NCBI GenBank assembly: GCA_014380065.1
Contig: JACMKO010000341.1
Location: 1 to 40,086 of the forward strand
Source: Leptolyngbya sp. ES-bin-22
GTDB lineage: Bacteria; Cyanobacteriota; Cyanobacteriia; Leptolyngbyales; Leptolyngbyaceae
DNA: 40,086 nt
Reading direction: 5' to 3'
Shown here: positions 11,980 through 40,086 of the stretch, piece after piece
Position numbering within the stretch: position 1 is the first letter of the stretch
How the letters are laid out: each line of letters starts with the position of its first letter
Position numbers and translations under genes: made by a program
Notes under the pieces: generated by a model
Database searches by the model: none
The model's input: the letters and a program-made list of their open reading frames with translations, nothing else
Told to the model about the DNA's origin: nothing

Positions 11980-11993
11980 TTGGTTGTTGGTTT

Positions 11994-12041
11994 TTAGTTG
12001 TTAGTTGTTAGTGTTTCTAAAAACTAACAACTAACAACTAA
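11994..12041. repeat. Heptamer (TTAGTTG) inverted repeat between cpcG1 and cpcG2
   Basis: TTAGTTGTTAGTTGTTAGT (11994-12012) pairs perfectly over 19 bases with ACTAACAACTAACAACTAA (12023-12041) around a 10-base loop. Both arms are short arrays of one 7-base unit. No T-run follows. In RNA it would form a stable AU-rich hairpin 14 bases after the cpcG1 stop. Confidence 0.85.
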
Positions 12042-13809: not shown

Positions 13810-14934
<1,125 letters not shown>

Positions 14935-18765: not shown

Positions 18766-20988
18766 ATGAAGGAAGTTCTTTATCTCGAAGTCCCTACCCC
18801 AGAGGTAGAGGCTGTCAGAACCTGGCTACAGCGGGAGTTTAAACCCCGAACAGGCACAAAAGTCGTTGCTAGCAGTGGCATTCGTCTCACGTTCTCCTCA
18901 ACTACACCGCCAGAAGCACACATGCCGGAAACGCAGGTGGAAGTCGCCACACTTGCTCTGTTTGTCTGGTCATTGCAGCGGACGACCTATCTCAAAGTCT
19001 TTCGCTGGACGCAGCAGCCCGCGCCCCAAGAAAAAAGCGTGTTGAAGGAGTTGACGCACGCTCTACGCGATCGCTTTCCCAATCAGTATCCTCAGCCACC
19101 CGCGATCGACCTCTCTCGCCAATCGATTTTCGATGCGCTTGTGGAACGGTATCCGCTGACCGTAAAGTACTTCCAGAAAATGCCGAATGGCGAATATGAC
19201 CTTACCCGCGTTTACTGGTGGGAACAGCGCTGGCGTGAAGGTGTGGAGAATCCGAAAAAGCCTCGACAAGTGGTGTTTGCGGGAGGAGAGGGGAAAGGGG
19301 AGAGGGGAGAGGAGTCAGAAAGGCATGGAGACAAGGAAAAACTATCACCAACAACTAACAACCAAAAACTAGCAACTGGCACCCCTTCACCGCTTCACCG
19401 CTTCACCCCTCACCCCTCACCCCTCACTCCTCACTCTTCACCGTCCTACGACCTGATCTACCTCGGTGGCGCGCTGGGCGTTATCCATGCGGCAGTGATG
19501 GCGAAGCTAGGCTATCGAGTGCTGCTGGTGGAGCGGTTGCCGTTTGGCAAAATGAACCGGGAATGGAATATTTCGCGGAGCGAGTTCCAGAGCCTCATTA
19601 ACCTGGGGTTGTTTACGCCCAGCGAGTTTGAGAGCGTGATTGCTAGAGAATATGTAGACGGATTTCACAAGTTTTTTGATGCCAATAATCCACCAGCGTC
19701 AAAAGCACCCGTGCTGCATACGCCAACGGTGCTGAACGTCGGGCTGGATGCGGAAAAGCTGCTGCGCGTTTGCGGCGAGAAACTGCGGAGCTACGGTGGA
19801 GAGATTTGGGACGAAACGGAATTTATCCGCGTTGAGGTCGATCGCGCTCAGGTCATGGTGCAAGCGAAGCATCTCCCCACGGGTGCTATGCGATCGGTGA
19901 CTGGACGAGTGTTGGTAGATGCGATGGGTACAGCCTCCCCGATCGCGTGGCAGCTCAATGGGGGGCGTGCGTTTGATAGCGTCTGCCCAACGGTTGGAGC
20001 GGTAGTTGCTAGCGGGTTTGAACCAGGCGTGTGGGATGCTCGCTACGGGGATGTGCTCAACAGTCATGGGGATATTTCACGGGGACGACAGCTTATTTGG
20101 GAGCTGTTTCCTGCTGATGGTGAAGAGCTAACCTTTTACCTGTTCCACTACCATCAGGTGCATCCTGACAATCCGGGGTCGCTGCTGGAAATGTACGAAG
20201 ACTTTTTTACAATACTGCCAGAGTACCGTCACTGTGACATGGATCAACTGGTCTGGAAGAAGCCTACGTTTGGCTACATTCCAGGGCACTTTACGACGGG
20301 TCGAGGCGATCGTCAGGTGGCGTTCGATCGCCTCATTGCGTTAGGCGATGCTGCGTCACTGCAATCACCGCTGATTTTCACCGGGTTCGGTTCGCTGGTG
20401 CGCAATCTACCCCGGCTAACCCATCTGCTCGATACGGCTCTCAAGCATGACTTGCTCAGCGCCAAGCATTTGAACCAGATTCGGGCGTACCAAAGTAATG
20501 TCGCGGTTACCTGGTTATTTTCTAAAGGCATGATGGTACCGACCGGGCAGAACCTGCCGCCTGAGCGCGTCAATGCGATGCTCAATACCTTTTTTGGCAT
20601 TCTGGGAGATCAGCCTCCTGCGATCGCGGAAGCCTTCATTAAAGATCGCGTTGACTGGCTAACGTTTAACCGTATGGCACTGACTGCCGCCTGGAAAAAT
20701 CCGAAGCTTTTGCTCTGGATCTGGGAGATGGCAGGAGCGGTAGACTTTGGACGTTGGCTCGGCAGCTACCTCGACTTTTCCATTAGCGCTTTTGTGAGCA
20801 GTTTGATTCGCGGCTGGTTTCCTGCACTTTTACGACAAGTTCAGCCCTGGTTGGAGCCAAGATTTCCCGGCTTTTGGCTGTGGCTTTTGGCGCAAAGCTA
20901 TCTGTTTACTGATGGTGTTGGGCGACCCCAGGCAGCACAGCCTCGCTCTACCGCAACCATTGAGGAGCAAACTCATGCGTCGGTTTAA
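18766..20988 (+). CDS. cruA: FAD-dependent lycopene cyclase, CruA/CruP family
   Basis: This is a flavoprotein of the CruA/CruP group, which cyclises lycopene in green sulfur bacteria and many cyanobacteria. The N-terminal ~170 residues are a family-specific extension. The FAD fold then begins with YDLIYLGGALGVIHAAVMAKLGYRVLLVER. Diagnostic segments are MNREWNISRSEFQSL, LVDAMGTASPIAWQL, IALGDAASLQSPLIFTGFGSLVRNLPRL and a hydrophobic C-terminus. The SPLIFTGFGSLVRNL form suggests CruA more than CruP, with moderate certainty. At 740 residues it is longer than expected because residues about 172-227 are low-complexity peptide encoded by interspersed repeats (separate entry). These sit exactly between the extension and the Rossmann fold. 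The frame is intact. Confidence 0.82.
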   Translation: MKEVLYLEVPTPEVEAVRTWLQREFKPRTGTKVVASSGIRLTFSSTTPPEAHMPETQVEVATLALFVWSLQRTTYLKVFRWTQQPAPQEKSVLKELTHALRDRFPNQYPQPPAIDLSRQSIFDALVERYPLTVKYFQKMPNGEYDLTRVYWWEQRWREGVENPKKPRQVVFAGGEGKGERGEESERHGDKEKLSPTTNNQKLATGTPSPLHRFTPHPSPLTPHSSPSYDLIYLGGALGVIHAAVMAKLGYRVLLVERLPFGKMNREWNISRSEFQSLINLGLFTPSEFESVIAREYVDGFHKFFDANNPPASKAPVLHTPTVLNVGLDAEKLLRVCGEKLRSYGGEIWDETEFIRVEVDRAQVMVQAKHLPTGAMRSVTGRVLVDAMGTASPIAWQLNGGRAFDSVCPTVGAVVASGFEPGVWDARYGDVLNSHGDISRGRQLIWELFPADGEELTFYLFHYHQVHPDNPGSLLEMYEDFFTILPEYRHCDMDQLVWKKPTFGYIPGHFTTGRGDRQVAFDRLIALGDAASLQSPLIFTGFGSLVRNLPRLTHLLDTALKHDLLSAKHLNQIRAYQSNVAVTWLFSKGMMVPTGQNLPPERVNAMLNTFFGILGDQPPAIAEAFIKDRVDWLTFNRMALTAAWKNPKLLLWIWEMAGAVDFGRWLGSYLDFSISAFVSSLIRGWFPALLRQVQPWLEPRFPGFWLWLLAQSYLFTDGVGRPQAAQPRSTATIEEQTHASV
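19279..19446 (+). repeat. Composite heptamer repeat inserted in frame in the cruA-like gene
   Basis: Three repeat styles follow one another: GGAGAGG units (19283-19312), a CAACTAA-like run (ACCAACAACTAACAACC, about 19347-19363), and CACCGCTT then CACCCCT units (about 19387-19435). All three match families found between genes elsewhere in the window. Translated, they give Gly/Glu/Arg-rich, then Thr/Asn/Gln-rich, then Pro/Ser/Thr/His-rich peptide. Confidence 0.85.
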
Positions 20989-39413: not shown

Positions 39414-40086
39414 TGTTCTAGCCAACGCCGATCGCCTCAATGGACGATCGCACCCACTGTCAGACGCTCTGCCAACGCTTAGACAACAAATCAAGCAAGG
39501 TATGGAAGCCTGTCGCAACAGTACATTGGCGCTGTTTAACACGGTCGATTACGAGACATTCTGCCAGCAAGCCCATCCAGATTTCAGCCCGATCGGCTGG
39601 CACCTGGGACATATCGCTTACACAGAGTCACTCTGGCTGCTAGAGCATTCCGCTGGACTTCCACCTCAATTTCCTCCGTACCGTCGCCTGTTTGCAGCCG
39701 ATAGTCTACCGAAAACAGAGCGCGTCTACCTGCCCGACTTAGCTGAAGTACAGGCGTATCTACAAACCGTCCGCAATGCCGTGTTTGCCTATCTGGAAAC
39801 GGCACCCCTTGATAAACAAGAACGTCTCTGGCGCTGGTTGCTACAACATGAAAGCCAGCACGGGGAGACGATCGCGCTGGTGTTGGAGTTAATTAGGAGT
39901 CACGAGTCAGTAGTCAGTGGTCACGAGTCACAAGTCACGAGTCAGGATCAACTCAAAACTCAAAACTCAAAACTCAAAACTCAAAACTCAAAACTCAAAA
40001 CTCAAAACTCAAAACTCAAAACTCTTCCCCCCTCCCCCCTCCCCCCTTCCCCCTTCCCTGCTCTGCATTCCCGCAGGCTCCTTCGA
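39382..40086 (+). CDS. egtB: Ergothioneine biosynthesis protein EgtB-like, N-terminal part (cut by window end)
   Basis: This frame is not in the ORF track because it has no stop before the window end. The ATG at 39382 overlaps egtC by 32 bases in another frame. It reads MTSISKAIQSDVLANADRLN, then a DinB_2-type domain with CRNSTLALFNTVDYETFCQQAHPDFSPIGWHLGHIAYTESLWLL and RLWRWLLQHESQHGETIALVLELI. GWHLGHIAYTE and HESQHGE supply the iron-ligand histidines expected of EgtB (sulfoxide synthase joining hercynine to a thiol). After LELIR the protein should lead to its FGE-sulfatase domain. Instead the frame runs through repeat-coded peptide (LKTQNSK repeats, then Pro/Ser). The catalytic C-terminal domain lies beyond the window. 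Confidence 0.8.
   Translation, partial: MTSISKAIQSDVLANADRLNGRSHPLSDALPTLRQQIKQGMEACRNSTLALFNTVDYETFCQQAHPDFSPIGWHLGHIAYTESLWLLEHSAGLPPQFPPYRRLFAADSLPKTERVYLPDLAEVQAYLQTVRNAVFAYLETAPLDKQERLWRWLLQHESQHGETIALVLELIRSHESVVSGHESQVTSQDQLKTQNSKLKTQNSKLKTQNSKLKTLPPSPLPPSPFPALHSRRLLR
39898..40060 (+). repeat. Triple heptamer array inside egtB
   Basis: Seven degenerate AGTCACG units (39898-39946) are followed by ATCA. Ten exact ACTCAAA units (39951-40020) come next, then about five TCCCCCC-like units (40026-40060). All three blocks have a 7-base period. The array is open on the coding strand. The reverse orientation of ACTCAAA would give a TGA every 21 bases. Confidence 0.9.

Follow-up and report, generated by a model that had tools for sequence, protein, structure and literature searches.

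How does a tandem repeat come to lie, with the reading frame intact, inside a conserved enzyme? The question is raised by a 40,086-nucleotide stretch of DNA from Leptolyngbya sp. ES-bin-22 (contig JACMKO010000341.1; hereafter the window), where a preliminary description had pointed to about 168 bases of heptamer units at positions 19279-19446, placed exactly between the N-terminal part and the FAD fold of a CruA-like gene with the frame kept. Cyanobacterial heptamer repeats are already known, the short tandemly repeated repetitive (STRR) sequences having reportedly been described by Mazel in 1990, and so are repeat elements in frame in conserved genes of Rickettsia. Selfish repeats that lie in frame within conserved genes have their best-known examples in that obligate intracellular organism with its reduced genome; similar behaviour in large-genome, free-living cyanobacteria provides a natural experiment on the origin and tolerance of new protein segments, made visible by recurrent sites and by turnover between near-identical proteins.

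The CruA-like protein and its linker

The gene (18766-20988, forward strand) encodes a CruA-like FAD protein of 740 residues, which aligns end to end over the full ORF with cyanobacterial homologues 62-87% identical to it. A homologue match was found in 93 of 97 relatives searched, filamentous and other cyanobacteria alike; the nearest named homologues are those of Stenomitos rutilans, S. frigidus, Tildeniella nuda and Leptolyngbya FACHB-321, which places the window genome among Stenomitos and its relatives. One of the homologue matches (G090:C1:3331283-3332791) has an internal TGA. A shorter paralogue of ~510-600 residues (32-37% identity) aligns to the FAD part alone, from about residue 215. 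Similarity over the full length to a ~700-residue cyanobacterial protein, accompanied by a shorter paralogue, is the pattern of the CruA/CruP family, and we infer CruA to be the long form and CruP the short one. Profile searches of the protein against Pfam and NCBIfam matched no model; the CruA-like label therefore stands apart from any curated model, and lycopene cyclase activity is a predicted function of this protein.

The protein comprises an N-domain (residues 1-171), the repeat linker (residues 172-227) and a FAD-binding fold from residue 228. In the AlphaFold2 model (mean pLDDT 70.9 overall) residues 1-171 and the region from 227 onwards are for the most part folded, and the best Foldseek matches of this model, to geranylgeranyl reductase and to FAD-dependent halogenases and monooxygenases, are consistent with a CruA-like family. 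Residues 175-223 of the linker have pLDDT values below 50, as expected for disorder, which bears out the earlier suggestion that the insert falls in a linker; the model indicates that this interdomain linker is probably disordered and permissive.

The 168-base segment (forward strand) encodes a 56-residue linker that joins the N-domain to the FAD fold, with exact boundaries at the conserved sequences PRQVVF on the N-terminal side and YDLIYLGGALG on the C-terminal side, and it is open in one frame. Both the heptamer composition and the precise, frame-preserving position described earlier were thus confirmed. Tandem Repeats Finder (TRF) resolved three arrays on the forward strand: a purine arm of GGAGAGG (x4.0, 19285-19312), an A-rich middle made of a degenerate CAACTAA-type double heptamer (AAAAACTAACAACC x2.9, 19337-19376), stop-free in the reading frame on translation, and a pyrimidine arm of CACCCCT (x8.6, 19380-19442), in part the 8-mer CACCGCTT. 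The arrays cover ~130 of the 168 bases, with 19313-19336 lying outside them. The best lag of the linker is 7, with a top 21-nt stretch matching at 20 of 21 positions, and the lag-7 match exceeded that of every one of 200 shuffles (p = 0.005, the smallest value attainable with this number). By TRF and by lag-7 matching, the linker therefore consists of tandem 7-nt units, as do STRRs.

Dispersed relatives within each genome

A search of the window genome with its linker gave 51 matches, one of them the linker itself; like those of STRRs, the linker units thus occur in many dispersed copies within one genome. Corresponding searches of a genome with its own linker gave 63 matches in Nostoc mirabile, 76 in Microseira wollei and 61 in S. 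frigidus. When genomes were compared with one another, the Microseira linker had 58 matches at home (itself included) versus 0-1 in each of five others; the S. frigidus linker matches repeats of relatives too, chiefly via its A-rich middle.

Two linkers correspond to whole elements. That of Microseira is a member of a hairpin family of ~85 nt, of which 12 copies were aligned. Seven of these lie within ORFs (CruA-like, CarB, GltB, LpxB near the N terminus, LpxC, a CBS/poly(A)-polymerase protein and a histidine kinase), and six of the seven share both strand and reading frame, the other frames often containing stops. The linker of Nostoc NMS2 is a dispersed element of ~130 nt with a conserved core and ~40 scored genomic copies (40 scored out of 303 first-look candidates), 84-94% identical over ~104-137 nt and mostly outside long ORFs. 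The Desmonostoc muscorum genome has ~24 copies related to this element elsewhere, yet its CruA linker is different. Inspection by eye of 21 aligned NMS2 copies revealed no fixed ends and no target-site duplications, the embedding in arrays hiding the ends; the repeat elements as a whole likewise showed neither a target-site duplication nor a transposase or fixed element end, so that active movement is a possibility at most. The proposal that a repeat family entered a coding gene is thus upheld in part: the dispersed matches and the whole-element linkers of Microseira and NMS2 speak for it, while replacement by recombination among dispersed repeats would account for the data as well as transposition. 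One of the Microseira copies of the 85-nt element sits 63 nt upstream of a bacterial small SRP RNA gene (L163; 1501-1585 and 1648-1744).

Occupancy and turnover of the CruA site

Among cyanobacterial homologues we compared 94 distinct linkers, which range from 30 to 168 nt and are all in frame in a single ORF; their lengths differ by multiples of three by construction, as intact ORFs alone were sampled, and the number of homologue loci discarded for a broken frame was 0. Strong 7-nt arrays are present in about a quarter to a third of the 94, others have 8- or 9-nt arrays, and the remainder are either shorter and repeat-free or too degenerate for an array to be called. The units are strain-specific, including GCGGTCA, AATCCCC, CTATCCC, AGGGAGC, GCAGGGGA, ATCCCCCTC and more. 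Where a gap was expected in homologues for residues 172-227, many relatives have a repeat-free linker of just 10-14 residues. The nearest relatives, within the Stenomitos genus, offer no clean empty site: its seven genomes all carry a long linker with differing content, which looks degenerate and partly born of slippage. Together with the different repeats of other cyanobacteria, this contradicts a single insertion in this lineage.

On a CruA tree computed without the linker, at least 18 switches between array and no array are required. The arrays are also concentrated at this site: 27 of the 85 found in 616 kb around cruA (80 genomes) sit in the linker, which makes up ~1% of that DNA. For 111 pairs with cores at least 93% identical, the median identity of the linker is 0.54 versus 0.93 for the next 300 nt, and the CruA cores of Nostoc NMS2 and D. 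muscorum are 99.2% identical with 3% of linker 8-mers shared. By these sequence comparisons the CruA linker is a hypervariable pad, repeatedly occupied and rewritten across cyanobacteria. In several Nostoc genomes (L091, L097, L099, L105, L114 and L120; positions ~900-1200), a gene located upstream of cruA also contains heptamer arrays, with differing units at nearly the same position, ~220 residues into the ORF.

In-frame arrays in other genes

In-frame repeats of this kind are not confined to the CruA-like gene. Fourteen of the 29 best linker matches in the window genome, in ~12 genes, lie in frame in ORFs of at least 200 residues with at least 40 residues on either side of the insert; over four genomes, the best copies in frame within ORFs of at least 200 residues number 14 of 29, 5 of 11, 5 of 11 and 7 of 9. 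Carriers in the window genome named by Pfam are Mfd, an N-acetylmuramoyl-alanine amidase, a WD40-repeat kinase, an ABC transporter ATPase and an AMP-binding enzyme; another, named from PDB similarity, is a copper-type P-ATPase.

A further carrier beside these ~12 genes, and the second array-bearing coding gene in the window, is a tocopherol cyclase (PF14249, E = 2.6e-161; 13810-14931, reverse strand), which has a GGAGAGG-type array in frame at 14599-14634 (reverse strand). S. frigidus (L169) has another heptamer unit at this site. Repeats resembling those of the linker had been described between genes nearby, and this is correct for the CAACTAA/TTAGTTG arrays at 11983-12041, which are intergenic and belong to the unit family of the linker middle, but not for the GGAGAGG array within the tocopherol cyclase. 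Near the window end, TRF found a composite (39897-40058, forward strand) of a GAGTCAC array, AACTCAA x10.7 and a TCCCCCC array; it lies outside the listed long ORFs and has the purine-middle-pyrimidine order of the linker.

In solved homologues, the positions of the CarB and Mfd inserts correspond to short loops, and that of the GltB insert to an already variable loop. Within the Stenomitos genus, GGAGAGG-type purine arms together with pyrimidine arms occupy the Mfd site in at least three members, and shorter modules of the AAAGGAT..ATCCTTT type do so in three.

A census on one 720-kb contig of a sister genome gave 88 arrays of period 7, compared with 0-8 for each other period from 5 to 11. 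In-frame positions in long ORFs account for 21 of the 88, whereas 54% of random 35-nt pieces are spanned by such ORFs; coding copies are therefore depleted yet common. A single ORF of 977 residues in this genome (G002:C9, ~268975-271190) contains six separate in-frame heptamer arrays.

Origin of the linker

Taken together, these results lead us to propose, with a probability of roughly 0.8, that the linker is a copy of a dispersed heptamer-composite repeat of the host, lying in frame in a permissive linker, and that this pad has been rewritten many times. Its location and frame, its dispersed relatives and the recurrence of arrays at the same site are direct observations. So are the turnover between near-identical proteins, the whole-element copies in two species and the involvement of other genes. 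In the proposed mechanism, composites of a purine array, an A/T-rich middle and a pyrimidine array would spread within each genome, their arrays lengthening and shortening through slippage and whole modules being swapped for other members of the genome's own repeat repertoire. Most copies would end up between genes. Some would land in, or be converted into, permissive coding sites and be kept if in frame, surviving only where a stop-free frame coincides with a surface loop or domain boundary. Spread may have occurred by transposition or by recombination and gene conversion, which fit the data equally well, as neither element ends nor target duplications turned up to distinguish them, and out-of-frame copies would presumably be removed by selection. 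Since the frame is strictly kept, the linker is probably translated; repeat DNA has apparently been turned into protein in cyanobacteria.

Slippage might have acted alone, heptamer arrays arising de novo in an old low-complexity hinge without exchange with repeats elsewhere. Tandem arrays do grow and contract, and the linker is unconstrained and predicted to be disordered, as such an origin would have it. Linkers nevertheless match dozens of dispersed copies with the same units in their own genomes, near-identical proteins have unrelated linkers, and the module at the Mfd site is of the GGAGAGG..CACCCCT kind in some species and of the AAAGGAT..ATCCTTT kind in others. Two linkers are full-length copies of dispersed elements of 85 and ~130 nt with conserved cores, for which slippage alone is insufficient, and we consider this origin unlikely. 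An intron- or intein-like intervening sequence, removed from the RNA or the protein, would be compatible with the preserved reading frame, and removal from the RNA had been raised in the preliminary description, but it deserves scarcely any credence: no Rfam intron family reaches cut-off here, the content differs wholly between strains in a manner unlike a self-splicing element, and inteins are far longer than the 168-base insert.

The arms of the window linker are 71-83% complementary (fold z = -3.05), and a selected RNA structure must also be weighed: pairing of the purine arm with the pyrimidine arm in the mRNA could create a hairpin that makes translation pause between the two domains. The purine-then-pyrimidine order of the linkers fits such a hairpin, and 17 of 43 long linkers fold at z < -2, compared with 1 and 1 in the flanking controls. 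The pairing, however, is in general not specific: the 3' arm of a linker pairs with its partner no better than foreign arms do (median rank 0.48; rank ≤0.05 in 9 of 59), and the arms are wholly absent in many homologues. Despite the good folding of many linkers, the test for arm co-variation was negative in general, and a conserved hairpin was rejected. Rfam searches over the gene returned chance microRNA matches far under cut-off, with none at gathering level over the linker. The polarity also occurs outside genes: of neighbouring purine and pyrimidine arrays (150-200 nt apart at most), the purine array leads in 43 cases and the pyrimidine array in 0, genic and intergenic, in overlapping strain sets whose cases are not all independent. 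As intergenic composites share this order, a protein-level constraint on polarity was ruled out, and the polarity is a property of the element and not of cruA. We regard a selected hairpin as improbable, and prefer the copied and rewritten repeat as the origin of the linker.

Comparison with known repeat systems

The Rickettsia palindromic elements (Ogata et al., 2000, 2002), as related in PMC10969869, are inverted-repeat-like sequences of ~100-150 bp that lie in frame in unrelated conserved genes, the added peptide being tolerated at permissive sites. The Microseira family likewise occurs in frame in several unrelated conserved genes, and the Microseira and NMS2 elements are palindromic DNA, whereas most Stenomitos copies are not clean palindromes. 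The CruA linkers of NMS2 and D. muscorum, and the Mfd site within the Stenomitos genus, display presence/absence polymorphism among close relatives, as the Rickettsia elements do. The cyanobacterial elements differ in their tandem 7-, 8- and 9-nt units, their purine-middle-pyrimidine order, their genome-specific sequence and the rewriting of the same site, and they occur in another phylum; the likeness drawn here is one of behaviour.

With STRRs the linker repeats share dispersed heptamers that are mostly intergenic. The usual, if not strict, location of STRRs is outside protein-coding genes, and the window linker lies inside the CruA-like ORF; the linker repeats go beyond STRRs in that they form composite modules, kept in frame, which recur at particular sites of conserved proteins and turn over among close relatives. 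In Nostoc PCC 7120, 68% of GGGGA(C/T)T heptamers are intergenic and about one third intragenic (Rehm et al.; PMC4692102), so that intragenic copies had already been noted statistically. STRRs are also reported from within the RNase P RNA gene (Vioque, 1997). TAACTGA repeats of cyanobacteria and Beggiatoaceae, which in the genome analysed there lie mostly ahead of start codons, are heptamers too, of a different unit, and it was suggested that they might be tolerated between modular protein parts (MacGregor, 2015; PMC4679880).

Our search of the open-access literature found no account of in-frame heptamer composites in cyanobacterial proteins; older key papers lie outside it, and a prior description is possible. 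We are evenly divided on the broader proposal that these repeats represent a phylum-wide, unrecognised class of protein-coding elements: fixed-polarity heptamer composites that spread within genomes, are tolerated in frame at fixed, permissive positions of dozens to more than 100 conserved genes and continually rewrite linkers. Such a class would be a counterpart, independent in origin, to the palindromic elements of Rickettsia. Repeat-derived linkers are present in cyanobacterial annotations, alignments and structure models, which call for caution in this respect, and the repeat-bearing sites flag positions at which enzymes accept long insertions.

Short dispersed, possibly mobile repeats are said to nest in cyanobacterial heptamer arrays (Elhai and colleagues, 2008). 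The window linker has no non-tandem core and is in this respect unlike them. Three other heptamer linkers (L139, L105 and L061) appear to hold similar pieces: non-tandem and palindromic (e.g. GGGAGGGTTTCCCTCC), they are nested in frame within the arrays. The Mfd inserts of L175 and L177 also contain nested non-tandem palindromic pieces, with the frame kept.
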